A stretch of 64,000 bases of DNA from Siminovitchia terrae (GTDB lineage Bacteria > Bacillota > Bacilli > Bacillales > Bacillaceae_C): NCBI RefSeq assembly GCF_003605405.2, contig NZ_QYTW02000002.1, positions 150,555-214,554 on the forward strand, in the 5' to 3' direction. This document shows positions 8,178 through 22,299 of the stretch, piece after piece. Positions within the stretch are counted from its first letter, which is position 1; the number at the start of each line of letters is the position of its first letter. The notes beneath the pieces were generated by a model that did not search any database, was not told the DNA's origin, and saw only the letters and a program-made list of their open reading frames with translations. The position numbers and the translations under genes were made by a program.

Positions 8178-8300
8178 TCTTATAAGGTTTTGTCCAGCTT
8201 ACGGGTTAAGTGATAATGAGTGGGAAAAGGAAAAATGATCTGATATTTCTGGTAGTTTTCCGAAACATTTGATATGCTTGATAAGAAAACTGAATAAGTA

Positions 8301-8480
8301 GAAATAGGTGCAGATAAAAAGGGTTTTATTTGCTTAATAGGGAAGTTCGGTTGGATTCCGACGCTGTCTGCGCAACTGTATTTGGGAGCGATTCAAAAGG
8401 GAGCCACTGTTTTCATTCACTTGAAAATGGGAAGGTTTGAAAAGCGATGATCATAAGCCAGGAGACCTGCCTGTTTCAGC
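8301..8480 (+). promoter_or_regulatory. Cobalamin (B12) riboswitch
   Basis: The conserved aptamer blocks appear in the right order: TAATAGGGAAGTTCGGT (about 8336-8352), CCGACGCTGTCTGCGCAACTG (split over 8358-8379), GCCACTG (8403-8409), a GGGAAGG arm (8429-8435), GCGATGA, and the B12-box-like AAGCCAGGAGACCTGCC (8455-8471). A transcription terminator (8574-8602) lies about 95 nt downstream, so control is probably by termination on ligand binding. Candidate targets are the small ORF at 8620 and, if read-through occurs, prpD-prpB. Confidence 0.92.
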
Positions 8481-8573
8481 AAACATCGATACCTACGCGA
8501 GATGGGAGGTGTTAAGTGCGAAAATGGTAAAGCATGTATTTTGACATGTTTATTTATTATTCATTCGTCCCTT

Positions 8574-9229: not shown

Positions 9230-10666
9230 GTGATCAAAACGAATGAGCGCCCTACAAATGTAGACCATTTACTGGAGGACATTGCCGACTATGTACTAGA
9301 TTCGAAGATTACAAGTAACGAAGCTTTCGAGACAGCACGTTATGTACTGCTTGACACATTGGGATGTGGAATACTTGCGTTGCGATATCCAGAATGCACA
9401 AAGCTGTTAGGACCGCTTGTGCCGGGTACGACGGTTCCAAAGGGAAGCCGGGTGCCGGGGACATCATACGTACTTGATCCGGTACGCGGGGCATTTAATA
9501 TTGGATGCATGATTCGCTGGCTCGATTACAATGATACGTGGCTGGCGGCTGAGTGGGGGCATCCTTCAGATAATCTGGGCGGAATACTGGCAGTGGCTGA
9601 CTATGTTAGTCAAGTGCGCCTTGAAGAAGGGAAAGAACCATTGGCCGTTCGGGATGTGCTGGAAATGATGATTAAAGCACATGAAATTCAGGGGGTTCTC
9701 GCATTAGAGAACAGTTTGAACCGGGTTGGACTGGATCATGTGCTTTTTGTTAAAGTTGCCACAACCGCTGTTGTGACAAAGATGCTTGGAGGAGGGCGTG
9801 AAGAGATCATCAATGCGCTTTCCAATGCATGGATTGACAATAGCAGTCTTAGAACGTACCGTCACGCTCCGAATACGGGCTCTCGGAAGTCATGGGCTGC
9901 CGGGGATGCGACAAGCAGAGGCGTTCTTTTGGCAATGATGGCCGTTAAAGGAGAGATGGGCTATCCACAGGCTCTTTCTGCGCCGGGCTGGGGTTTTCAG
10001 GATGTTTTATTTAAAAAACAAGAATTAAAGCTTGCGCGGCCTCTTGATTCCTATGTAATGGAAAACGTATTGTTCAAAGTATCTTACCCGGCAGAATTTC
10101 ACGCACAAACTGCCGCGGAGTGTGCAGTCAAGCTTCATCCACAAATCAAGGATCGGTTGGATGAGATTGATAGGATCACCATTACTACACATGAATCGGC
10201 AATTCGAATCATTGATAAACAAGGGCCGCTCCATAATCCGGCTGACCGCGACCATTGTCTTCAGTATATTACGGCAATTGGTTTGATTAAGGGGGATATA
10301 CGGGCGGAATATTATGAAGAGGAAACGGCGGCGGATGAAAGGATTGACCGTTTACGGGCCAAGATGGAAGTCATAGAAAATAAACAATACAGTATTGATT
10401 ACTTAGATCCGAGCAAGCGCTCAATCGCCAATGCTGTACAGGTCCATTTTATGGATGGAACTTCGACTGAAAATGTTGAATGCGAGTATCCTTTGGGTCA
10501 CCGATTCCGCAGGGAAGAAGCTATTCCGCTCATTAAGAAGAAATTTTCAAATAATCTGAGGGCGCATTTCCCAAATAAGCAATCAGAAAAAATTGAGGAA
10601 GAATGTTTTGATAAAGAAAAGCTTGAGCAAATGCATGTTAAGCAATTTCTGGAATTGTTCTTATAA
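9230..10666 (+). CDS. prpD: MmgE/PrpD family 2-methylcitrate dehydratase
   Basis: 478 aa, the usual length of PrpD. Recognisable blocks are [42 protein letters not shown] (near-universal in the family) and the C-terminal [21 protein letters not shown]. PrpD dehydrates 2-methylcitrate in the propionyl-CoA-degrading methylcitrate cycle. The GTG start has AAAGGAAG upstream. prpB follows after 15 bp, so the two are co-transcribed. A methylcitrate synthase (PrpC) and the next hydratase are not in the window and must be encoded elsewhere. Confidence 0.92.
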
Positions 10667-11644: not shown

Positions 11645-11677
11645 GAGCCCCCTATTCAGTCGGGGGCTCTACCTTTT
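11645..11677. terminator. Bidirectional terminator between prpB and the C45 hydrolase gene
   Basis: GAGCCCCC (11645-11652) pairs with GGGGGCTC (11662-11669), followed by a pyrimidine-rich tail. The 3' arm reaches the stop codon of the converging gene. Confidence 0.7.
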
Positions 11678-12727
11678 AAACCAGTCGGCATTTTCATCCA
11701 TATGTACGAATGGAATATCCGTGTCTACTTCCCCTGTTATGCTTTTTACTATAATGTCCTTCCCTTTCAGCCATTCTCCAAAATCAAACTTCATCGGTTC
11801 CTGATTTCCCCCCAGTGCCATCCATGTTTGCATTTCTTTAGGAAAGTATGCAGAAGTATGGATTGTTCCAGCCCAGCTGCTGTATAAGCCAGAAAAAACA
11901 CCTTTGTCCGTATCGTTGAATAGACGGAAAGCTTCGTATTTATCCGAAACGGGATTCTTTCGAATCGCTTCAAGTCTGCGTTCGGAATCCGCAAGATGAT
12001 GACGATTTTCGTGTTTTAATTCTTCAAAATGATTTGTGCAGGCGTTTGATTGTCTTACGGTGATCTTCCTTGGCGTCGCTTCAACAATATGAGTCTCGCC
12101 GCTTCGGTCATACACAATATAGCTGAACGAATGCCGATGCGGAATTTCTTTTAACAATGAGACAGCTTCCTTCACATTTGCACAAGTCTCCAAAACAAGC
12201 CTTCCGATCATTCCGCAAATGAAGCCATCCTTAGGGCTCTTTCGGTTCATAAAATTGTAGCCCATGGCGAGTCCTTTCTCGTTCAAGCCATCCGAACGAC
12301 CCGTAATTCTTTGGCTAGGCCCCACGGTCGCATAACCATTTTTGACTGGCTGGAAAAATACATATCGTCCTTCATATGTTTTCGGATGATAATCGTAATT
12401 GCGGATGAGATAGCCGTCACCGGTTAAAATGGAGCAACCTGACCGGGGAATTTCTAATCGGTACCCGCCAAATTCAGTTAGTGCGCGTTCCAAAGGCCAT
12501 TTCAGCGCTTCCTGTAACCCAAGAATTTCTTCCCAAACCCCCGGTGCAATCGAGGTAATCGCCTCTTTCACTTCAGCAGCATCGATTTTGAATCGCGGTC
12601 TGCGCACCTTCCATTGATTTTCCCTATTTTTGACAATAAGGGAATTCTTTAAAATCTGTCCCTGCATAAAACCGAAATCATAATGGGAACCGCGGAATTG
12701 AATAATATCACTATAAATATTTTTCAT
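11669..12727 (-). CDS. C45-family (acyl-CoA:6-APA acyltransferase-like) Ntn hydrolase
   Basis: 352 aa. The RGSHYDFGFMQGQIL N-terminal block and SGCSILTGDGYLIRNYDYHP are typical of C45 proteins. The cysteine in SGCS is the autoprocessing nucleophile that becomes the new N-terminus after self-cleavage. Such enzymes hydrolyse or transfer acyl groups on amides such as N-acyl amino acids or peptides; the substrate is unknown. The ATG at 12727 is chosen because GTGAGGA lies just upstream; the GTG 12 bases earlier is inside that ribosome site. A decayed copy of this gene's 5' end and leader lies at 22788-22860. Confidence 0.85.
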   Translation of the reverse strand: MKNIYSDIIQFRGSHYDFGFMQGQILKNSLIVKNRENQWKVRRPRFKIDAAEVKEAITSIAPGVWEEILGLQEALKWPLERALTEFGGYRLEIPRSGCSILTGDGYLIRNYDYHPKTYEGRYVFFQPVKNGYATVGPSQRITGRSDGLNEKGLAMGYNFMNRKSPKDGFICGMIGRLVLETCANVKEAVSLLKEIPHRHSFSYIVYDRSGETHIVEATPRKITVRQSNACTNHFEELKHENRHHLADSERRLEAIRKNPVSDKYEAFRLFNDTDKGVFSGLYSSWAGTIHTSAYFPKEMQTWMALGGNQEPMKFDFGEWLKGKDIIVKSITGEVDTDIPFVHMDENADWFKR

Positions 12728-12870
12728 TATGTTCCTCACTTTCTATTAAGGCTATTTTATGGGAAGAGGGAGGGGAGGGCAACACTTTGGTGCTCTACTA
12801 ATAGAGTAAATGTAAACCCTATAAAGCTCTGTCTTGAGAGAAATATCTTATTAAAATGTGAATCCCTGTT

Positions 12871-13173: not shown

Positions 13174-13218
13174 ATGTTATTAGAGGTTAAGGTGGAGGCT
13201 GTAATTGGCACATATTAA
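13174..13218 (+). CDS. Possible 14-aa leader peptide overlapping the kinase start
   Basis: The ATG at 13174 has a very strong AGGAGGAG site (13156-13163) and encodes MLLEVKVEAVIGTY. It ends 13 bases inside the kinase gene in another frame. It could set translation of the kinase, whose own TTG start is weaker, or be fortuitous. Confidence 0.35.
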   Translation: MLLEVKVEAVIGTY

Positions 13219-14665
13219 ATCAGCAAGAGAAATTTGTCGCACGCATACACAACTCAGTGAGGAAGATATTGCTGAAATAGAAAAAATAGAAAGTAATCTA
13301 CAGCTAATTGCAGATTTAAATCAAGCAAATATTTTTATAGACTGCCCGACCCAGGAGCTAAAACATGCAATTATTGTTGCAGAAGCGGTCCCATCTAATG
13401 GGAATTCGTTGTACGATCGGCCTGTTACAGGAGAATTTGCCTATGAAGCTTTTGAACCCGCCGTCTTTTTTACCCTTCGAACAGGGAAGCAAATGATTCT
13501 TAACAGAGCACTTACACAAGAAGGTAAAATGGTGAAACAGAGCGTTGTTCCGGTTAATGGGAAAGACGGAAGAGTAATTGGAACATTAATAATGGAAAAA
13601 GATATCACCGAACAGGTTGAAGAAGAAGATAAAATGAAAGCGCTGTCTAAGGCTACAGCTACCCTTAGTGATATCATGATAAGAATGACTCAAAATGATC
13701 CAATTGTTCCTGAGATCATTGAAGAGTCCTTGTTTTATATAGATGAAAATGATGATATCGTTTATGTGAATCCGTCGGCTATGAACCTTATTTATGAAAT
13801 ATATGGGAGTAAATGTAATGTAGGTGAACCGATTACCGAGTATCTGCCTTTTATTGAAGAACTCCTGTCTCTTCCCGAGACGTTATTAATGAGGGAGATT
13901 CAGATAAAAAGCCGTTTTTTTCAATTAAAGAAAATATCCCTAAACCATAACAATAATAAAGCATCCGGAACATTTATTATTTTACAGGATCTTACCGAGC
14001 TTAAAGAGAAAGAACGGCAGCTTATAGTAAAATCTGTGGCAATTCGGGAAATTCACCATAGGGTAAAAAACAATTTGCAAACAGTCGCTAGTCTTTTGCG
14101 TTTACAAATGAGAAATGGAGTTCCGGAAGCAAGTAAGCCGCACTTTCAAAAAAGTCTTAACCGGATATTAAGTATAGCAGCCGTTTATGAATTGATCCTG
14201 TCAGGCTCAAGCGCAGATGATGTAAACGTGTTAAATTTGGTGGAAAAGATTGCTCATATGATAGTGTACAGTGAACCTCAAAAAGATATATCTGTACAGA
14301 TTAATTATGAAAAATCGAATTTACAGCTTTCATCCCATAAAGCCGTTTCAATTGCATTAATTATTAGTGAACTGATACAAAACTGTGTCAAACACGCATT
14401 CAAAGGCAATTCACAAGGAAAAATTATTGTCGATTTCAAAAAAAATAATGACAGAATTGAAATGAAGGTTATAGACAATGGAATTGGATATTCAAAGGAT
14501 ACCGGTGCTTCTTTTGGATTAGATATTGTAAAGATGATGGTCGAATACGATTTGGAGGGCGAATTTTATATTCAACGTATGTACCCTGGAACAGTAGCGA
14601 CGGTTATTTTTCAATCGAAGGAGAACCATCATGCTGAACAAGCGGATTATAGTAGTGGAGGATGA
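13205..14665 (+). CDS. Sensor histidine kinase, HisKA_2 type (PdtaS/EutW-like)
   Basis: 486 aa, no membrane segments, so a cytosolic sensor. Residues about 5-140 match the HK_N/GAF-like sensor domain of EutW and PdtaS. Residues about 165-270 are a PAS domain (SLFYIDENDDIVYVNPSAMN). The HisKA_2 motif EIHHRVKNNLQTVASLL puts the phospho-accepting histidine at 284/285. It is followed by an HATPase_c domain with ELIQNCVKHAF and DNGIGYS. Kinases of this class phosphorylate ANTAR antiterminators; in Enterococcus EutW senses ethanolamine. TTG start with GTGGAGG upstream. The end overlaps the next receiver gene. Confidence 0.88.
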   Translation: MAHIKSAREICRTHTQLSEEDIAEIEKIESNLQLIADLNQANIFIDCPTQELKHAIIVAEAVPSNGNSLYDRPVTGEFAYEAFEPAVFFTLRTGKQMILNRALTQEGKMVKQSVVPVNGKDGRVIGTLIMEKDITEQVEEEDKMKALSKATATLSDIMIRMTQNDPIVPEIIEESLFYIDENDDIVYVNPSAMNLIYEIYGSKCNVGEPITEYLPFIEELLSLPETLLMREIQIKSRFFQLKKISLNHNNNKASGTFIILQDLTELKEKERQLIVKSVAIREIHHRVKNNLQTVASLLRLQMRNGVPEASKPHFQKSLNRILSIAAVYELILSGSSADDVNVLNLVEKIAHMIVYSEPQKDISVQINYEKSNLQLSSHKAVSIALIISELIQNCVKHAFKGNSQGKIIVDFKKNNDRIEMKVIDNGIGYSKDTGASFGLDIVKMMVEYDLEGEFYIQRMYPGTVATVIFQSKENHHAEQADYSSGG

Positions 14666-15002
14666 GTCCATCGTTCGTCTGGATATTGTTGAAATGCTCA
14701 AAGCAGAGGGTTTGAATGTAGTTGCAGCAACAAATAACGGTGAAAAGGCTATAGAGCTTGCAGAAATTTTACAGCCTGATCTCATTATTATGGATATAAA
14801 AATGCCTAAAGTAGACGGGATTAAAGCGAGTGAGATTATATCTGAAAAATTGGATGTTCCCATATTATTATTAACGGCGTATACACAGGATGAAGTTATA
14901 AAGATTAGAAAAATCAATTCTATTTTAGGATATTTGGTGAAACCTGTATCCGAAAACAATTTGATACAAGCAGTAAAAAATATATTATTTCCATCCCAGT
15001 AA
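14631..15002 (+). CDS. Receiver-only response regulator (no ANTAR output)
   Basis: 123 aa containing just one CheY-like receiver: acidic pair VEDES, phospho-acceptor in DLIIMDIKMPK, LTAYT, and the conserved lysine in GYLVKPV. It is closely related to the receiver of the ANTAR regulator at 20415-20996 but stops where the ANTAR domain would begin. No ANTAR remnant is found downstream in any frame. It overlaps the kinase gene by 35 bp with GAAGGAG upstream, so kinase and receiver are made together. It may act as a phosphate sink or competitor for the full-length regulator. Confidence 0.85.
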   Translation: MLNKRIIVVEDESIVRLDIVEMLKAEGLNVVAATNNGEKAIELAEILQPDLIIMDIKMPKVDGIKASEIISEKLDVPILLLTAYTQDEVIKIRKINSILGYLVKPVSENNLIQAVKNILFPSQ

Positions 15003-15050
15003 AAAAGCCGGTAGGAAATGATAGATTTCTATCTCTGATGAATTATCTAT

Positions 15051-15119
15051 AAAAGTTCATAAGTTCAAGCGATGGTGCTTATCCGTATTATCTTTGATAA
15101 AACGGATAGGCACTTTTTT
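15051..15119 (+). promoter_or_regulatory. Candidate ANTAR-controlled attenuator in the eutH leader
   Basis: A block AAAAGTTCATAA (15051-15062), identical to one in the leader of the ANTAR gene, is followed by the small hairpin AAGC-GATGGT-GCTT (15067-15080). This hairpin overlaps the 5' arm of a terminator (GTGCTTATCCGT 15075-15086 / ACGGATAGGCAC 15102-15113, then TTTTTT). The two folds exclude each other, as in ANTAR two-hairpin antitermination. The hexaloop has G at position 4 but G, not A, at position 1. It could also simply end the kinase operon. Confidence 0.5.
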
Positions 15120-15206
15120 GTTTGAATTTTACCGTTACATTAGGGGAAATCTATTAACCTCGGTTGATATAAATTATAAAAATAAATATAAATGGAGGGA
15201 TTCTAA

Positions 15207-16469
15207 TTGGAACTCGTCGGAAATATAGTAGTATATATTATTATGATTTGTGCAGTCATGGGTGCGTTTGCTGCAATGAAAGATGCCCAAAAGGGGCTTG
15301 GCAAGGAGTTTATGGAAGGGATATATACGGTCGGTCCCATTTTTGCCAATTCAGCAGGAATTATGGCCTCCATTCCCTATTTGTCGAAGTTTATAACGAA
15401 TGTCTTTGGTCCCTTTTTTGATAAGCTGGGAGCAGATGCGGCCATTGCTGCTACTTCCATCCTTGCAACGGATATGGGAGGCTATCAGTTGGCTAACGTT
15501 CTGAAATCTTCCTATGAAGGCTGGATCATGGCTATGATCGTTGGCTATATGGCCGGTGCGACTATTGTGTTTTCAATTCCACTCGGTTTACCCATGCTTG
15601 ATAAAAGAGACCATAAATATATGGCGCTTGGCATCATGTCAGGTCTGTTGACCATTCCAATCGGAGCTTTTATCTCCAGTATCATTATTGTACTATCGAA
15701 TGCAAAGATCCGTACAATCATTGATACGAGTGCAGAATCAACTTATGAGTTCACACTAAGTTATTTATCAATCCTGGTTAACTTGTTGCCGCTTTTTATA
15801 TTTGTAGTCATTATTGCATTGGGATTATATTTTTTCTCTGATTTAATGATCAAAGGTTTCATGATATTTGGAAAGCTATTGGACATAAGCATTAAGATCG
15901 TTTTGGTGTTTTCTATTGTTGAAATCTTTACCGGGTTTTTCTCTACTATTTTGGGTTCATGGGGATTCGATCCTATTATGGCCGATGGAAAAGATAATTT
16001 CAGGGCGCTGGAAAATGCAGGGAATATTGCGATTATGCTGGCGGGTGCATTTCCAATGGTATATTTAATCCGTAAATATTTATCAAAGCCTCTTACAGCC
16101 ATGGGCAGAAAAATTGGACTCAGTGAAGCAGGAAGTGCAGGAATGCTTGCCACTGTAGCTAACATACTGGCTATGTTCAAACTTGTACGTGACATGCCGC
16201 CAAAGGACAAAGTGATCAATATATCTTTTGGAGTGTCGGCAGCATTTTTACTGGGTGATCATCTTTCCTATACTGCCAACTTTCAACCGAGTCTGATTCC
16301 TGCAGTATTGATAGGGAAAATTTGTGCAGGAGCTTTAGGAGTTGTATTTGCTTATTGGATTTGTGTTCCTAAGGCTCTTGAATTGGAGAAGATGGACAGA
16401 GAAGCGGGGATCATTGGAAAACAAGAGTATGTTTATGAAGAAGAAAAACAGACGTCAACCATAGCGTAG
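15207..16469 (+). CDS. eutH: Ethanolamine permease-like protein EutH
   Basis: 420 aa polytopic membrane protein with ten or more hydrophobic segments. The family hallmarks are present: KDAQKGLGKEFMEGIYTVGPIFANSAGIMASIPYL, ATDMGGYQLA and FSYTANF-type GDHLSYTANFQPSLI. EutH carries ethanolamine across the membrane. No eut microcompartment or ethanolamine ammonia-lyase genes are nearby, so import must feed another route; the GS-like, ALDH and SDR genes that follow are the obvious one. TTG start with GGAGGG upstream. The leader carries an attenuator. Confidence 0.88.
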   Translation: MELVGNIVVYIIMICAVMGAFAAMKDAQKGLGKEFMEGIYTVGPIFANSAGIMASIPYLSKFITNVFGPFFDKLGADAAIAATSILATDMGGYQLANVLKSSYEGWIMAMIVGYMAGATIVFSIPLGLPMLDKRDHKYMALGIMSGLLTIPIGAFISSIIIVLSNAKIRTIIDTSAESTYEFTLSYLSILVNLLPLFIFVVIIALGLYFFSDLMIKGFMIFGKLLDISIKIVLVFSIVEIFTGFFSTILGSWGFDPIMADGKDNFRALENAGNIAIMLAGAFPMVYLIRKYLSKPLTAMGRKIGLSEAGSAGMLATVANILAMFKLVRDMPPKDKVINISFGVSAAFLLGDHLSYTANFQPSLIPAVLIGKICAGALGVVFAYWICVPKALELEKMDREAGIIGKQEYVYEEEKQTSTIA

Positions 16470-16487
16470 CTTTACTTTAGTACCTGT

Positions 16488-16609
16488 GCCTGGAGGGGGA
16501 TGCCTTCCAGGCTATTGACTGTGCCTAATCTAAGAAAAGATGAGAATTGTTCGATAAACATGCAGGAACGTGATTAAGCCCTTGGAACCTTTGAGTAGGT
16601 TACAAGGGC
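16488..16609 (+). terminator. Hairpins downstream of eutH
   Basis: Two stems, GCCTGGA/TCCAGGC (about 16489-16513) and GCCCTTG/CAAGGGC (about 16578-16609), lie between the convergent eutH and SDR genes. Neither has a proper T tail on the + strand, so termination is only likely, not certain. Confidence 0.4.
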
Positions 16610-16673
16610 CTGCTATAAATCTTTATGAAGGAGACTCCCGATTCAGGGACGAGTGTTGGCTAATCACTGCTTT

Positions 16674-17441
16674 TTAAAAATAATTTGATGTAATACCGCC
16701 GTCAACATTGATTAAGGCGCCGTTCGTCCAGTCGGCTTCGTCGGAAGCGAGGTATAATGCGCAATTGACGATATCCTGTGGCTTTCCGAAGCGTCCCGCC
16801 GGCTGCCGGTCTAGACGAACGCGTTTTGCCTCCTCATCTGTAACAAGCCATTCCATTAATAACGGCGTTTCAATTGGTCCTGGACAAATGGCGTTTGTGC
16901 GTATTCCTTTTGGTCTGAATTGAATGGCAAGTGATTTGGTGAGTGAACATACAGCTCCTTTGGAAGCCGTGTAGGCATCCTGAGGTACTGAACAGCCCAT
17001 AAAAGCGACAAATGAAGCGATATTGATAATAGAGCCCGATTGATTTTTCTCCATTTCAGGGATAACATACTTTGTCATGAAAAAGATGCCTTTCACGTTT
17101 ACATTCATTACTAAGTCCCAAACTTCTTCCGAAGTATCCACTACTGAGTGATCTTCCGCTGGCATTACACCAGCATTATTATATAGAACATCTATTTTTC
17201 CGTATTTTTCGACCACTTCTGAGACGGCGGAAGCAACATTTTGTTCATTTGCAATGTTACACAGGAAAAAAGCTGCTTCTCCACCGTTTTCCTTTATTTC
17301 GTTCACTGTTTCCAACCCCGCTTGCTCATTGAGCTCAAATACTGCAATTTTTCCTCCTTCTTTGGCAAACATTTGGGCAGCAACCTTCCCCATGCCTCCA
17401 CCTGCACCTGTAATAATGCATACTTTATCTTTTAATCTCAT
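16674..17441 (-). CDS. SDR family oxidoreductase, candidate gamma-glutamyl-amino-alcohol dehydrogenase
   Basis: 255 aa classical short-chain dehydrogenase: NAD(P) motif TGAGGGMGKVAA, NNAGVMP, catalytic serine region INIASFVAF and YTASK, C-terminal NVDGGITSNYF. It is the last gene of the operon ANTAR regulator-ALDH-GS-like-SDR, 18 bp after the GS-like gene with a GAGGTGA ribosome site. In the gamma-glutamylation route for ethanolamine an alcohol dehydrogenase must oxidise gamma-glutamylethanolamide before an aldehyde dehydrogenase acts. This SDR is the only candidate in the island, but no substrate can be read from the sequence. Confidence 0.85.
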   Translation of the reverse strand: MRLKDKVCIITGAGGGMGKVAAQMFAKEGGKIAVFELNEQAGLETVNEIKENGGEAAFFLCNIANEQNVASAVSEVVEKYGKIDVLYNNAGVMPAEDHSVVDTSEEVWDLVMNVNVKGIFFMTKYVIPEMEKNQSGSIINIASFVAFMGCSVPQDAYTASKGAVCSLTKSLAIQFRPKGIRTNAICPGPIETPLLMEWLVTDEEAKRVRLDRQPAGRFGKPQDIVNCALYLASDEADWTNGALINVDGGITSNYF

Positions 17442-17459
17442 TTATTTTCACCTCATTAA

Positions 17460-18863
17460 TTAACATTGTTCAAAATATCTGGCAATCTCCCAATTGGAAA
17501 CAAATCTATCAAACGCCTGCTGTTCTACTGTAGCAGCGTGCAAATAATGCTTAGCAACCTTATCTCCCAATACCTTGCTTATAACTCCGCTATTTTCCCA
17601 GCACATGATGGCTTCATGCAAAGAGGAGGGAATTCTCTTCACATTTGGATCCGCATAGGCATTCCCTTTGAATTCTGGAGACAGTTCAAGCTCTTGCTCA
17701 ATTCCTAGCAAACCTGCTCCAATGAGTGCTGAATAGGCTAAATAAGGATTCATATCAGCTCCAGGTATTCTTGACTCAAATCGTAAGTGGTTGTCATTGC
17801 CAACGACACGATAACCCGCTGAACGATTATCTTTACTCCATACGATATTTACAGGCGCCCAGCTGTTTGGGGAAAATCGTTTAAATGAATTAACGTTTGG
17901 GGCAAAAAACAACGAGAAATCCCTGGTGTAAGATAGAACGCCAGCCATGAAATGCTGCATCGTTTTTGACATGGAGCTACTCGCGTCTTCGCCGGCAAAA
18001 AAAACATTTTTACCAGTATGGATGTTTGTGAGACTGAGGTGAATATGCCCGCTAGAACCGGTCCATTCATGATGCGGCTTAGACATGAAGGTGACGGATC
18101 GTTCATTTTGGATACATATCTCCTTCATTCCATGCTTAAAAAATAAATGTTGGTCCGCCGCTTTTAAGGCATCCGCGTATTTCAAATTAATTTCATGCTG
18201 CCCATAATAGGCTTCCCCTTTCGAAGATTCGATCGGTATACCGGCCTTGTCCATATATTGGCGAATCTTTTGATAGAGTGGTTCGTTTCTTGTACCTTGC
18301 AAAAGGTTATAATCTTCATTCACATGACCTGCTGTCTGAAGGCTTCTATATTCCTTTTCATGCGCAGTTTCATATGTTTCAGTAAATAAATAAAATTCCA
18401 GCTCACTTGCCATATACGGCTGAAAGCCCATTTGTGCCGCTTTTTTCAATTGGCTCTTCAATATGTTTCTTGGAGCGACAGCCACAGGAGTGGTACCATC
18501 CATTTCGTAAACATCACAGAAAATTGACGCTGTTTTTTCCAGCCAAGGGATCACTTTAAAGGTATCCCAATCCGGCTTAGCAATCCAATCGCCATAACCA
18601 TCATTCCAATTCATTGATTCATAGCCTTCGGGAACATTCATTTCAAAGTCGGTCCCTAATAAATAATTGCAAAAGTGGGTTCCTGTATCTAAGTCGTTTT
18701 CCAAACAGTATGTGCCAGTAACCCTTTTTCCCATAAATCTTCCTTGCATATCACAAAAGCCAAGAATGACGGTGTCTATTTGTCCTTCTTTAATCAATTG
18801 GAGTAGTTTGTTCTTGGTACTTGTTCCCTTAGCCTCACTGTAATTGGACAGTGTCTTTTCCAT
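17460..18863 (-). CDS. Glutamine synthetase-like gamma-glutamyl ligase (GlnA4/PuuA type)
   Basis: 467 aa. GS catalytic-domain motifs are all present: metal site ASELEFYLF, GQHEINLKYADAL, ATP/glutamate site GSSGHIHLSL, NSFKRFSPNSWAPVNIVWSKDNRSAGYRV and RFESRIPGADMNPYLAYS. The adenylylation-loop context and substrate pocket differ from assimilatory GlnA, as in ligases that gamma-glutamylate amines (PuuA, Streptomyces GlnA3/GlnA4). Beside EutH and an aldehyde dehydrogenase the likely amine is ethanolamine or another small amino-alcohol. The ATG at 18863 is taken with AAGGAG 12 bases upstream; an ATG at 18884 would overlap that site. Confidence 0.82.
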   Translation of the reverse strand: MEKTLSNYSEAKGTSTKNKLLQLIKEGQIDTVILGFCDMQGRFMGKRVTGTYCLENDLDTGTHFCNYLLGTDFEMNVPEGYESMNWNDGYGDWIAKPDWDTFKVIPWLEKTASIFCDVYEMDGTTPVAVAPRNILKSQLKKAAQMGFQPYMASELEFYLFTETYETAHEKEYRSLQTAGHVNEDYNLLQGTRNEPLYQKIRQYMDKAGIPIESSKGEAYYGQHEINLKYADALKAADQHLFFKHGMKEICIQNERSVTFMSKPHHEWTGSSGHIHLSLTNIHTGKNVFFAGEDASSSMSKTMQHFMAGVLSYTRDFSLFFAPNVNSFKRFSPNSWAPVNIVWSKDNRSAGYRVVGNDNHLRFESRIPGADMNPYLAYSALIGAGLLGIEQELELSPEFKGNAYADPNVKRIPSSLHEAIMCWENSGVISKVLGDKVAKHYLHAATVEQQAFDRFVSNWEIARYFEQC

Positions 18864-18895
18864 AGTATGAATCATCTCCTTCATAATAGATCGAC

Positions 18896-20323
18896 TTACT
18901 GCAAGGTTAATGAGATATATTTAAGCTCCACAAATTCATCTAATCCAAAGTGGCCGCCTTCTCTCCCCATTCCACTCTCCTTCACTCCGCCAAATGGTGC
19001 TTGAGGAACACTTAATTGTGTTCCATTGACGCCGACCATCCCGTACTCTAGGCGTTCACTGATCCGATACACCCGATTGACATCATTTGTAAAGAAGTAG
19101 GCGGCTAGACCATAAGGCGATTTGTTGGAAAACTCGATAACATCTTCCTCATTTTCAAAAGTCATAATAGGGGCAATGGGTCCAAATATTTCTTCTTGTA
19201 TAAGCTCCATTTTATCTGTGATATCTGTCAAAATTGTTGGCGAATAAAAATATCCGTCCAGCTCTGTCTGGATTCGTTCACCTCCTGTCAATAAAGTAGC
19301 CCCTTTCTCCTTGGCATCCTTCACTAAGTCCTCCATCCGTTGGAGGGCGGCATCATTGATTAACGGTCCCATTTGTACATCTGCTTTTGTGCCTTCACCT
19401 ACCTTTATTTTCTGGACCAAATATTTAATTTTTTCGGTCAGTTCCTCCTCTATATCTTTGTGTGCCATGATGACATTGATTCCGTTACACATTTGTCCGC
19501 AGTTTTCAAATTTATTCTCCACTATTTTTTCGGCTGCCACGTCCAAATTGGAATCAGGAAAAACAATAACAGGCGCATTTCCTCCGAGTTCAAGTGAAAT
19601 TCTTTTAACTTGATCCGCTGCTTTTTTCATTAATTTTTTCCCCACATTTGTAGAACCAGTAAAGGAAATTTTGCGTATACGTTGATCTTCGAATAGTACA
19701 TCGGATATTATAGAGGCCTTGCCTGTCACCAGGTTGGCAACACCGGCGGGTATTTTCGTTGCCATGAGTTCGTCAAACATGGCTATAGCAATTTTCGGTG
19801 TTTCACTTGCTGGCTTCACGATAATTGTGCAACCAGCAGCTAAAGCGGGAGCAACTTTTCTGGCAATCATCGCACCTGGAAAGTTCCAAGGTGTAATTAA
19901 CGCGCAAACCCCTACGGGCTGTTTTATTACGGTGATCCGTTGATTTTGACTGGAAGGGGGGATGACTTCTCCATATATCCGTTTACCTTCCTCTGCGTAC
20001 CACTTAATAAACTGAGCGCTACCTTCTATTTCACCGCGCGCCTCACTCACCGGTTTACCTTGTTCTTCGCTCATCAATAGGGCCAGTTCCTCCCGTTTGT
20101 TTAATAAATTTTCAGCCCATTTAGTTAAGTAAGCTCCACGTTCAGATGGGGTTAACTTAGACCAACTCACATAAGCACGGGAGGCTGCATCTATGGCAGC
20201 TGCAACTTCTTTTTTTCCTGCAGATGGTACATCTCCAATCACTTTCCCAGTGGCCGGGTTCATTACGTGAATCGTTTTCTCTGTTTTCCATTTCTTTCCG
20301 TTAATCCAGTTATAATTAAACAT
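18896..20323 (-). CDS. Aldehyde dehydrogenase, candidate gamma-glutamyl-aminoaldehyde dehydrogenase
   Basis: 475 aa NAD(P)-dependent ALDH with ITPWNFPGAMIARKVAPALAAG, FTGSTNVGKKLM, general base ELGGNAP, nucleophilic cysteine in NCGQMCNG, and EEIFGPIAP. It resembles succinate-semialdehyde and gamma-glutamyl-aminobutyraldehyde (PuuC-like) enzymes. Placed between the ANTAR regulator and the GS-like ligase, it would oxidise the gamma-glutamylated aldehyde. The ATG at 20323 has AAAGGAG ten bases upstream; an upstream in-frame start at 20380 lies inside the attenuator and is rejected. Confidence 0.9.
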   Translation of the reverse strand: MFNYNWINGKKWKTEKTIHVMNPATGKVIGDVPSAGKKEVAAAIDAASRAYVSWSKLTPSERGAYLTKWAENLLNKREELALLMSEEQGKPVSEARGEIEGSAQFIKWYAEEGKRIYGEVIPPSSQNQRITVIKQPVGVCALITPWNFPGAMIARKVAPALAAGCTIIVKPASETPKIAIAMFDELMATKIPAGVANLVTGKASIISDVLFEDQRIRKISFTGSTNVGKKLMKKAADQVKRISLELGGNAPVIVFPDSNLDVAAEKIVENKFENCGQMCNGINVIMAHKDIEEELTEKIKYLVQKIKVGEGTKADVQMGPLINDAALQRMEDLVKDAKEKGATLLTGGERIQTELDGYFYSPTILTDITDKMELIQEEIFGPIAPIMTFENEEDVIEFSNKSPYGLAAYFFTNDVNRVYRISERLEYGMVGVNGTQLSVPQAPFGGVKESGMGREGGHFGLDEFVELKYISLTLQ

Positions 20324-20360
20324 GTCAAACAATCTCCTTTCATAGCTACTTTTTAACAAA

Positions 20361-20413
20361 ATAAAAAGGCGCTCCAACAACAGTGATCAACTGTTCATTA
20401 AGCGCCTTTGCTT
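20361..20413 (-). promoter_or_regulatory. ANTAR-type attenuator upstream of the ALDH/GS-like/SDR genes
   Basis: Read on the minus strand, AAGC-AAAGGC-GCTT (20413-20400) forms a hairpin with a six-base loop carrying A1 and G4, the published hallmark of ANTAR binding loops. It starts two bases after the regulator's stop codon. Its loop and 3' arm are also the 5' arm (AAAGGCGCT, 20409-20401) of a terminator whose other arm is AGCGCCTTT (20373-20365) with a T run. The two structures are mutually exclusive. Confidence 0.6.
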
Positions 20414-20414
20414 T

Positions 20415-20996
20415 TTATTCACTTGTTTTTAGTTGGTATTTCTTTAAGATAGCGGATGCAACGACTTCCATCGGCTTTTGGTGATTCATACTTATCTTTC
20501 TTAGTAAAACATATGCCTCGTCTTCTGATAAATTTTTTACTTTCATTAAATAGCCTTTTGCTCTTTCTATCAATTTGCGAGTCTCAAGCTTCTCCTGTAA
20601 GTTTTTTATTTCGTTTGTAATTTGCTTTTTAATATTTACTTGTGACAAAGCTATTTCAACAGCCGGAATTAAACTAGCTTCCATTACAGGCTTTACAAGA
20701 TAACCTAGTACATGCGGCTGTTTTGCATCCTCAATGAAATCTGGCTGGCTGTATGCTGTTAAAAAAATAATCGGTGTGCCGGTAGCTTTACCAATAATTC
20801 TACTTGCTTTGAGACCGTTGAGTTTAGGCATCATAATATCCATTACAATAAGGTCTGGATTAATTTCATACGCCATTTCAATGGCAGACTCTCCATCCCC
20901 GGTGGCGTATACCTTGTATCCTGCAGATTCCAGCATTTGTTTTACATCCAAACGTATAATTGTTTCATCTTCAACTAGTAATATACCGGTTTGCAC
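20415..20996 (-). CDS. ANTAR-domain response regulator (PdtaR/EutV-like antiterminator)
   Basis: 193 aa from the GTG at 20996, which has GAGGTGG six bases upstream; an ATG at 21011 overlaps that site. A receiver domain (VEDETIIRLDV, phospho-acceptor DLIVMDIMMPK, GYLVKPV) is followed by a short coiled coil and a C-terminal ANTAR domain (LIERAKGYLMKVKNLSEDEAYVLLRKISM). ANTAR dimers bind pairs of RNA hairpins with hexaloops and prevent terminator formation. It heads the operon with ALDH, GS-like ligase and SDR. Its own leader and two others carry candidate target hairpins. The partner kinase is probably the product at 13205-14665. Confidence 0.9.
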   Translation of the reverse strand: MQTGILLVEDETIIRLDVKQMLESAGYKVYATGDGESAIEMAYEINPDLIVMDIMMPKLNGLKASRIIGKATGTPIIFLTAYSQPDFIEDAKQPHVLGYLVKPVMEASLIPAVEIALSQVNIKKQITNEIKNLQEKLETRKLIERAKGYLMKVKNLSEDEAYVLLRKISMNHQKPMEVVASAILKKYQLKTSE

Positions 20997-21054
20997 TATG
21001 AACCACCTCATAAGGATCTCAATTAGATAACGCTTTCAATAGGGGGGACAGTAA

Positions 21055-21126
21055 AAAAGCGCCTAAAGATTCCTTTCGTTTTTCCGGAAAGTGTCAATAG
21101 CGCCTTTGCATGTTTTATGAACTTTT
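21055..21126 (-). promoter_or_regulatory. ANTAR-type attenuator in the leader of the ANTAR regulator gene
   Basis: On the minus strand AAAAGTTCATAA (21126-21115, shared with the eutH leader) is followed by GC-AAAGGC-GC (inside 21111-21097), the same A1/G4 hexaloop as before the ALDH gene. The AAAGGCGCT arm (21107-21099) can instead pair with GGCGCTTTT (21063-21055) to form a terminator with a T run. This would make the regulator autoregulated by antitermination. Confidence 0.55.
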
Positions 21127-21132
21127 GTAATA

Positions 21133-21161
21133 ATCTTACTAGAATAAAAAAAGCTTGTCAA
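21133..21161 (-). promoter_or_regulatory. Promoter of the ANTAR-ALDH-GS-SDR operon
   Basis: TTGACA (21161-21156) and TAAGAT (21138-21133) are separated by 17 bp on the minus strand. Transcription would start near 21126, at the beginning of the conserved leader block. Confidence 0.75.
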
Positions 21162-21183
21162 TTATTTAAATATAATTTAGAAT
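21155..21183 (+). promoter_or_regulatory. Divergent promoter of the M20 peptidase gene
   Basis: TTGTCA (21155-21160), 17-bp spacer, TAGAAT (21178-21183). Its -35 box overlaps the -35 box of the opposite promoter almost completely, so the two promoters compete or are co-controlled. Confidence 0.65.
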
Positions 21184-21228
21184 TTTTCATTAGTAATAGA
21201 ACATGACAGAAAGAGGGGCAGTGACTAT

Positions 21229-22299
21229 ATGGGGGAACGTTTGACAAGCCTGATTGAAGACTTGATTCGAATTGATAGTTCCACAAAACAAGGAGCTAAT
21301 GAAGCAATTAAATATTGCCAGAACTGGTTTCTCTCACGTGGAATGACTGTGAAAACATTGGAAAATAATGGATTTAAAATGTTGATATGTGAAGTGGGAA
21401 AGGGAGAAAAGACTTTAATTTTGAATGGTCATGTCGATGTTGTAAGCGGAAAAGAAGATCAATTTCATCCATACCAGGCAGAAGGTCAATTATTTGGTAG
21501 AGGATCGGCAGATATGAAGGCAGGTGTAGCTGCGATGATGTGTGCACTTGCCGATTTAAAAGACACGGTGCTACAATGTAAAATTCAATTACAGCTTGTG
21601 ACAGATGAAGAAATCGGTGGGTATAATTGTACGAAATATTTAACTGAATCAGGTTATCTTGGAGACTTTGTCATATGTGCTGAGCCTACTCATTTAGGGA
21701 TTGGTTTACAGGCAAAAGGGGTTCTCCAATTGGATATACTTGTCAGGGGAAAGTCGGCTCATGGAAGCCGGCCTTGGGAGGGAGAGAATGCTATTTTACG
21801 TGCTTATGATTTATATAGGCATATTCTTGGCCTTCCTTTTGCAAAAGAATCCTCAGAATTGTTTAGGTATCCCTCCATTAATTTGGCGAAAATCAAAGGA
21901 GGGGAAGTGTATAATAAAGTTCCTGATACATGTATTATTTCGTTGGACATCAGATTTCTCCCTACTCAAAACAAACAAATAATTATAGAGCAAATCCGAA
22001 GTGTTGATGAATGTGAGATTGACATTATCTTATACGGGGATCCGGTCATGAATACGACTGATGATACACATATGCAGAATTTGATATCGCAAATCAGCGC
22101 CAACACTAGTAAACAAAGGGTTGAGATTTTCGGACAGCATGGATTTGCCGATACTAGGTATTTTTCTAGGTTCAATATACCTGCCATTGAGTTTGGACCT
22201 GCGGGAGGTAATTGGCATGGTGACAATGAGTATGTGAATATAGAATCTGTTGAAACATATAAACAAATATTAATTGCATTTGGAAAAGCCTTTAAATAA
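21229..22299 (+). CDS. M20 family metallopeptidase (ArgE/DapE/CPG2-like)
   Basis: 356 aa. Metal-binding motifs are LNGHVDVV, RGSADMKAG, TDEEIGG and CAEPTHLGIG, with dimerisation-domain GKSAHGSRPW and C-terminal PAGGNWHGDNEYV. This M20A group removes acyl or glutamyl groups from amino acids (deacetylases, succinyl-DAP desuccinylase, carboxypeptidase G2). It is divergent from the gamma-glutamylation operon with overlapping promoters. Hydrolysis of gamma-glutamylglycine, or a similar end product, to recover glutamate is therefore an attractive role, inferred from context only. A strong terminator follows. Confidence 0.85.
   Translation: MGERLTSLIEDLIRIDSSTKQGANEAIKYCQNWFLSRGMTVKTLENNGFKMLICEVGKGEKTLILNGHVDVVSGKEDQFHPYQAEGQLFGRGSADMKAGVAAMMCALADLKDTVLQCKIQLQLVTDEEIGGYNCTKYLTESGYLGDFVICAEPTHLGIGLQAKGVLQLDILVRGKSAHGSRPWEGENAILRAYDLYRHILGLPFAKESSELFRYPSINLAKIKGGEVYNKVPDTCIISLDIRFLPTQNKQIIIEQIRSVDECEIDIILYGDPVMNTTDDTHMQNLISQISANTSKQRVEIFGQHGFADTRYFSRFNIPAIEFGPAGGNWHGDNEYVNIESVETYKQILIAFGKAFK

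Follow-up and report, generated by a model that had tools for sequence, protein, structure and literature searches.

A 64,000-nucleotide stretch of the Siminovitchia terrae genome (the window; it lies on contig C12 of a 5.3-Mb assembly in 68 contigs) carries, at 13205-22299, genes for a EutW-like histidine kinase, a free-standing receiver domain and the ethanolamine permease EutH. On the other strand follow a EutV-like response regulator with an ANTAR domain (RR-ANTAR), an aldehyde dehydrogenase (ALDH), a glutamine synthetase (GS)-like ligase and a short-chain dehydrogenase/reductase (SDR), with a divergent M20 hydrolase beyond them (Table 1). All eight genes, which an earlier note had described from the letters alone, are open in the list of open reading frames (ORFs), and their families and positions were borne out by our scans. 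Judged by sequence comparison, the locus is probably a cobalamin-independent ethanolamine catabolic island that uses gamma-glutamylation under eut-type import and control. Four lines of evidence support most steps of this hypothesis, which the earlier note had put forward: the clade of the ligase, an exchange of transporters among related loci, the presence of either EutB or the SDR, ligase and ALDH in EutH genomes, and ANTAR-type attenuators.

Table 1. Genes and RNA elements of the locus (window positions)
Feature	Position	Strand	Basis and remarks
EutW-like histidine kinase	13205..14665	+	GAF_PdtaS, HisKA_2 and HATPase_c domains
Free-standing receiver domain, 123 aa	14631..15002	+	Response_reg; overlaps kinase gene
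ANTAR-type attenuator before eutH	15053..15120	+	Box AAGTTCATA, P2 AAGC-GATGGT-GCTT, overlapping terminator
EutH ethanolamine permease	15207..16469	+	NF011668, 674 bits (cut-off 575)
SDR, proposed gamma-glutamylethanolamide dehydrogenase	16674..17441	-	SDR family match
GS-like ligase, proposed gamma-glutamylethanolamide synthetase	17460..18884	-	Gln-synt_C
ALDH, proposed gamma-glutamyl-aminoacetaldehyde dehydrogenase	18896..20323	-	Aldedh; start moved from 20380 by reading
ANTAR-type attenuator before ALDH-GS-SDR	20363..20424	-	Box AAGTGAATA, P2 AAGC-AAAGGC-GCTT, terminator
EutV-like response regulator (RR-ANTAR)	20415..21011	-	Response_reg and ANTAR; GTG start at 20996 possible (by reading)
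ANTAR-type attenuator before RR-ANTAR gene	21053..21124	-	Box AAGTTCATA, P2 GC-AAAGGC-GC, weaker terminator
M20 (ArgE/DapE-like) hydrolase, proposed gamma-glutamylglycine hydrolase	21229..22299	+	Peptidase_M20; divergent

The ALDH more likely starts at the ATG at 20323 than at the TTG at 20380, because an RNA element covers 20424-20363. BLAST comparison of retrieved loci with the window proteins showed that the gene set is retained in Siminovitchia fortis (L003), the nearest named relative found, whose ligase is 89% identical. A search of named genomes with a single protein gave two relatives. S. fortis is labelled Bacillaceae in the ligase tree, which bears out the family given in the earlier note. 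In six genomes of another Bacilli family (f56; L056-L061) the kinase, RR-ANTAR and EutH, the SDR, ligase and ALDH, and the M20 gene recur in changed order. This retention indicates that the grouping is more than chance. The SDR, ligase and ALDH (the triad, counted when matches exceeded 45% identity) were present together in 32 relative loci, seven of which had EutH. In L012-L016, L062, L066 and others, the triad lies near an RR-ANTAR gene, usually accompanied by a kinase gene and, at most of these loci, by an APC permease gene.

EutB, the ligase and the transporters

The earlier note saw neither eutBC nor shell genes here. We found no EutB match in the whole assembly (EutC was not searched) and no shell genes at the locus. 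However, three bacterial microcompartment (BMC) genes, the only BMC matches of the genome, lie on contig C36 (L176, 5001-18418), so that "microcompartment-free" holds for the locus and not for the genome. Their neighbours encode an amidohydrolase, an adenine-deaminase-like protein, a DUF1989 protein, UbiD, a flavoprotein, an isochorismatase and an M20 protein, a microcompartment locus that is not of the eut kind.

The EutB search, which among 14 control genomes gave a match in E. coli, gave none in any of the 33 triad genomes tested, the window's included. EutH of the NF011668 type was present in 48 of 398 sampled Bacilli genomes; 39 of these had EutB, seven had the triad, none had both and two had neither. 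EutB was thus found in 0/7 EutH genomes with the triad versus 39/41 without it (36/37 and 3/4; Fisher p = 4.9e-7), where absence of the triad from the 41 rests on a ligase search of apparently the same 398 genomes. These results show that EutB and the triad exclude each other in EutH genomes. Because the seven come from two genera, the exclusion amounts to about two events. In the two EutH genomes with neither (G073 and G112; L092 and L164), EutH adjoins a gene whose product has 1075-1076 aa. EutB was also present in four genomes with a distant ligase of 38-41% identity (G721, G769, G435 and G650).

The window ligase scored far below the cut-offs of its best NCBIfam matches, TIGR03105 (type III) and GlnA (256 of 470 and 238 of 429, respectively). 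A Trp occupies the flap position at which GlnA of the same genome (L131) has Glu, and the DGSS motif is absent. The ligase might instead be a glutamine synthetase, ordinary or of type III, with EutH beside it by accident, which would agree with the identity of these two best matches; yet given the low scores, the missing flap Glu and DGSS, a GlnA above cut-off encoded elsewhere in the genome and the recurrence of the EutH linkage, we give this idea almost no credence. A putrescine (Puu) route was rejected on the score against the gamma-glutamylputrescine synthetase model NF045547 (205.9 bits, cut-off 650). The closest solved chains were 11zs and 5dm3, the latter of which we take to be the Chromohalobacter salexigens enzyme. 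Identity was 53.5% to the ligase of Thermomicrobium roseum, 36% to IpuC and 46% to a Paracoccus protein; the genes of the operon encoding the latter stand in the order described for the ethanolamine operon of Phaeobacter (PMC10132767). The ligase residues also agree with those discussed for GlnA4 and PauA7 (PMC6529630).

A ligase tree of 48 rows, from which six near-duplicate rows were left out and in which S. coelicolor GlnA4 was not among the rows, joined the window and S. fortis ligases to four rows from f56 (99/94), all of them belonging to a group of 29 rows from Bacilli and Thermomicrobium (100/99). Around it stands a clade of 37 rows (99/95) that also takes in Paracoccus, Ruegeria, Paraburkholderia, Allomeiothermus and, from the actinobacteria, four rows; among these four, Streptomyces NBC_00470 forms a long branch whose placement is uncertain. 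The fork uniting Bacilli with Paracoccus/Ruegeria had weak support (84/82). Outside this 37-row clade fell IpuC (both proteins), the ligases of L082-L085, GlnT, a PuuA-like protein and three GS proteins of the same genome (L131-L133); several of these rows are long branches whose joins may be false. The tree places the window ligase with ligases of ethanolamine-type operons, apart from IpuC, GlnT and GlnA. An isopropylamine (ipu) route was rejected on this position outside the IpuC clade, and a scan of nine genes at the locus and next to it found no match to its P450 or ferredoxin partners. L132 and L133, GS-like proteins encoded about 5 kb apart on contig C45 of the same genome, lack the flap Glu and are perhaps further gamma-glutamyl ligases.

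The window EutH shared 58-70% identity with EutH of EutB-bearing genomes, except for L093 (46%). An origin from another class of the phylum was rejected, since EutH of a same-order EutB genome (L165) was closer (70% versus 58-62%). In Siminovitchia and f56, EutH takes the place of an Eat-type permease. We scanned 26 APC proteins, 22 from triad loci and four from the distant loci L082-L085; seven, identified by identity as those of L012-L016, L062 and L066, matched TIGR00908, the model for ethanolamine permeases, with E values up to 1e-30; one of them scored 473 bits (cut-off 381.75). On a T. roseum plasmid (L099), the ligase, SDR and a gene annotated eat stand in a row, and the eat protein scored 436 bits against the same cut-off. 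EutH and Eat are described as non-homologous (PMC9397018), and each is linked to the triad; therefore, two transporter types attach to one enzyme set.

Several observations in this part count against our interpretation. Fifteen of the 26 APC proteins matched a general amino-acid permease model and just seven the ethanolamine model, so the substrate may differ among relatives; two EutH genomes had neither EutB nor the triad; and the Geomicrobium (L004) and G261 (L017) ligases, 57-64% identical, had no SDR or ALDH nearby. The L004 ligase match is split over two ORFs. The first of these observations bears on whether the same chemistry and control might serve another amino-alcohol, such as 1-amino-2-propanol or 2-amino-1-propanol, and yield another gamma-glutamyl product. 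The isopropylamine route reportedly runs via gamma-glutamyl-alaninol, other triads accompany the general APC permeases, and the choice of amine, which is said to vary within the ligase family, is discussed in PMC6529630. Against this, EutH of the NF011668 model adjoins EutB elsewhere and Eat-type permeases replace EutH in seven loci, and we consider a different substrate improbable.

ANTAR-type RNA elements and their regulators

The only Rfam match at gathering thresholds was a cobalamin riboswitch, so ANTAR elements were sought by pattern, as a hairpin GC-[AG]ANG[AG]N-GC overlapping a terminator, on both strands. The riboswitch (8289-8488, plus strand, 103 bits) is a strong match, followed by a short open frame, judged by eye to span about 75 codons, and a gene at 9230 that we class as PrpD-like. 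Three elements were found in the window, all at this locus, preceding eutH, the RR-ANTAR gene and the ALDH gene; 60 dinucleotide shuffles of the window contained 0.28 elements on average and three at most. In the window leaders a AAGTNNATA box precedes the hairpin (P2). Box plus P2 matched three times in the whole assembly, always at the locus, with no match for the reversed pattern, and twice in each of the six f56 genomes, again always in the locus. Moreover, an element was present in 18/19 relative triad loci with a response regulator nearby versus 3/13 without one (Fisher 4.3e-5, relatedness ignored). Of these three, L075 and L077 appear to owe their elements to chance hits in GC-rich sequence; at L080 a kinase gene is present and no response regulator was found nearby.

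At 31/41 sites in triad loci the box, AAGTNNA(T/C)A, precedes P2 by 2-8 bases from a four-pair stem. The search pattern constrains P2 at loop positions 1, 2, 4 and 5 and in pairs 3-4 of the stem; its other positions (stem pairs 1 and 2, loop positions 3 and 6) could vary freely. Among 23 distinct sequences (L067, L075 and L077 left out of these letter counts), pair 2 was A-T in 12, G-C in nine, G-T in one and T-T in one, and pair 1 was standard in 16; the exchange of A-T for G-C at pair 2 supports the hairpin. The leaders fold with -31.9 kcal/mol for eutH (z -7.2), -24.3 for ALDH (z -4.1) and -15.7 for the ANTAR gene (z -2.2). A P2 hexaloop with A1 and G4 that overlaps a terminator describes all three window sites, with exceptions at two of them.

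The same box and P2 preceded eutH in three of 13 loci of EutB genomes scanned with a looser element rule (L166, L170 and L172), with EutB within 5 kb, which also argues against another amino-alcohol as the substrate. In L170 and L172 a second element precedes a gene for a 483-aa protein.

Other results speak against a simple reading of these elements. At least one of the 60 window shuffles reached three elements. Over 43 genomes, box plus P2 gave 46 matches versus 11 for the reversed control; matches also occurred in triad-less genomes and none in the triad genomes G594, G725, G757, G631 and G639, so the pattern alone is not proof. In the window, loop position 1 of the eutH P2 is G rather than A (it is A in S. 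fortis), and the P2 of the ANTAR gene has just two pairs. EutV of E. faecalis recognises two hexaloop hairpins (PMC3369931; PMC8934654), and a P1 hairpin of that kind (at least three pairs, A1, G4, linker of at most 16 bases) was found at 0/41 sites. At these leaders the box occupies the place of that hairpin. Two ligase-less genomes of the same genus (L107, G024; L110, G028) have one box-P2 match each.

A simple terminator scan did not list the three attenuators and gave seven matches versus 7.5 expected; it probably missed them because it demands uninterrupted stems and loops of 3-8. A promoter-like TTGACA-17-TAAGAT precedes the ANTAR gene at 21161-21133, such matches being hardly commoner than expected.

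By hydropathy alone the kinase is apparently soluble, as no membrane-type hydrophobic stretch was seen. It shares 89% identity with that of S. fortis and 32-48% with 18 kinases of other triad loci, 12 of them at 43-48%. A soluble kinase together with a receiver-ANTAR regulator is the EutVW-type arrangement. Compared with the receiver domains of RR-ANTARs, the free receiver showed 54-64% identity for the f56 copies encoded upstream of eutH, 55-61% for those of L012-L016 and 53% for the RR-ANTAR of its own locus. Its dN/dS of 0.085, beside 0.081 for RR-ANTAR, 0.020 for EutH and 0.128 for M20, places it under purifying selection. Given this selection, and that it is free-standing in S. fortis too, the receiver is unlikely to reflect a sequencing error, and an origin as a frameshifted EutV was rejected, the downstream sequence having been read by eye. 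The free receiver reads as a EutV that lost its output domain, with a small margin in favour of the eutH-linked copy as its source.

The candidate hydrolase

The earlier note assigned the last step to the M20 enzyme. In 24/32 relative triad loci an M20, M20D or PuuD-like hydrolase lies within 6.5 kb of the ligase. M20 proteins of the window's cluster were found in 13/32 loci, seven at 48-80% identity, an amidotransferase in six (one member was scanned, its best match being gamma-glutamyl-GABA hydrolase, below cut-off) and an M20D amidohydrolase in five (one member scanned). In L012-L015 the gene for M20D carries a separate ANTAR element, which ties the hydrolase to the regulon there.

The M20 step is nonetheless the weakest link of the proposal, the known pathways being described with other hydrolases, and several facts tell against it: eight of the 32 loci had no candidate hydrolase nearby, six of the 13 M20 loci share just 25-27% identity with the window M20, the pattern search found no ANTAR element before the window M20, and, where a function is named for the nearest solved relatives of this M20, it is that of a deacylase or of carboxypeptidase G2. 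We know of no M20 enzyme that acts as a gamma-glutamylglycine hydrolase. It is conceivable, if rather unlikely in our judgement, that the pathway runs as proposed and another hydrolase, encoded at 11669-12739 or elsewhere, performs the last step, with M20 as a passenger. The gene at 11669-12739 (minus strand), beside the kinase, encodes a C45/AAT-family autoproteolytic hydrolase, a second candidate amidase. It lies near the cluster in S. fortis also, AAT-type enzymes reportedly cleave aminoadipyl amides, and the missing ANTAR element fits a passenger M20. However, M20 is retained at the cluster in the six loci of f56, and about 18 kb of sequence there gave no C45 match; M20s 44-47% identical to that of the window also adjoin a separate SDR-ligase-ALDH set in L082-L085.

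In L082-L085 the M20, SDR, ligase (38-41%), ALDH and APC permease genes stand beside a sigma-54-type regulator, whose best match in L083 was PrdR, below cut-off, and EutB is also present in these genomes. This set perhaps serves a gamma-glutamyl route for another amine.

Proposed pathway and comparison with known systems

In the ethanolamine pathway that we propose, EutH would import ethanolamine, which the GS-like ligase would couple to the gamma-carboxyl of glutamate using ATP. Oxidation of the alcohol by the SDR would yield an aldehyde that the ALDH would oxidise further to gamma-glutamylglycine, which M20 may split into glycine and glutamate, the latter being recycled. Such a route would make no free acetaldehyde, so no shell would be needed. 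The kinase would sense ethanolamine and phosphorylate RR-ANTAR, which would bind the hexaloop hairpins in the three leader RNAs and block terminator folding, permitting transcription of eutH, of the RR-ANTAR gene itself and of ALDH-GS-SDR. The free receiver is probably a competitor for the phosphate that this kinase supplies.

We tentatively extend this to a broader proposal, to which we assign somewhat less than an even chance. The sensor, ANTAR antiterminator, RNA element and EutH of Bacilli would form a portable module for control and import that moved from the B12-dependent ethanolamine ammonia-lyase (EAL)/shell pathway onto ATP-driven gamma-glutamylation; M20 would be a new kind of gamma-glutamylglycine hydrolase; a EutV copy in Siminovitchia would have shed its RNA-binding domain to become a phosphate-competing receiver; and a linear AAGTRAATA-like box would replace the P1 hairpin.

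If the ethanolamine pathway is correct, Bacilli can use ethanolamine without relying on either cobalamin or a shell, and genome surveys based on EutB would miss such users. The control circuit would be separable from the chemistry, with a single kind of RNA switch regulating two unrelated ways of using the same substrate. The locus would further offer a clean test of the EutW-like kinase signal without the B12 branch, and a testable function for an M20 hydrolase subfamily and a variant ANTAR target.

The canonical eut operon (EutVW, EutH, EutB) of Bacilli and related classes shares with the window the order of kinase, RR-ANTAR and eutH (e.g. L086-L088 and L165). The window locus differs in lacking EutB and shell genes, and therefore no need for cobalamin is expected. 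The ipu genes of Paenarthrobacter aurescens TC1 (L097, L140) likewise include a GS-like ligase near an SDR, an ALDH and an amidotransferase, but their ligase lies outside the clade and a P450 and ferredoxin are present. The T. roseum plasmid locus has Eat instead of EutH and neither ANTAR nor ALDH among the 13 features listed. By annotation, the Paracoccus operon differs in an iron-type alcohol dehydrogenase and an enzyme of the N-formylglutamate-amidohydrolase type.

The chemistry itself has precedents in Streptomyces and Proteobacteria. In S. coelicolor, work that proposed the triad and a route via gamma-glutamylglycine also showed that GlnA4 glutamylates ethanolamine (PMC6529630). According to that paper, the glnA4 cluster (SCO1610-1615), like the window, groups SDR, ALDH and GS-like ligase without canonical eut genes; it differs in having no strong EutH homologue, the repressor EpuRI rather than ANTAR control, another permease in some species, and orf5, called a glutamine amidotransferase, where the window has M20. 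A matching operon is induced in Phaeobacter (PMC10132767). The Phaeobacter/Chromohalobacter operon resembles the window in its ethanolamine gamma-glutamylase, two dehydrogenases and proposed gamma-glutamylglycine product, and differs in its TRAP transporter and RpiR regulator. By title and abstract, we found no publication combining EutH or EutV with gamma-glutamylation in the open literature, subscription papers being mostly outside this coverage. The "new pathway assembly" of the earlier note can thus be kept in part: given the triad of Streptomyces and Phaeobacter, the enzymatic route is not new, and the novelty lies in EutH and EutVW-type RNA control joined to it in Bacilli, replacing EutB.

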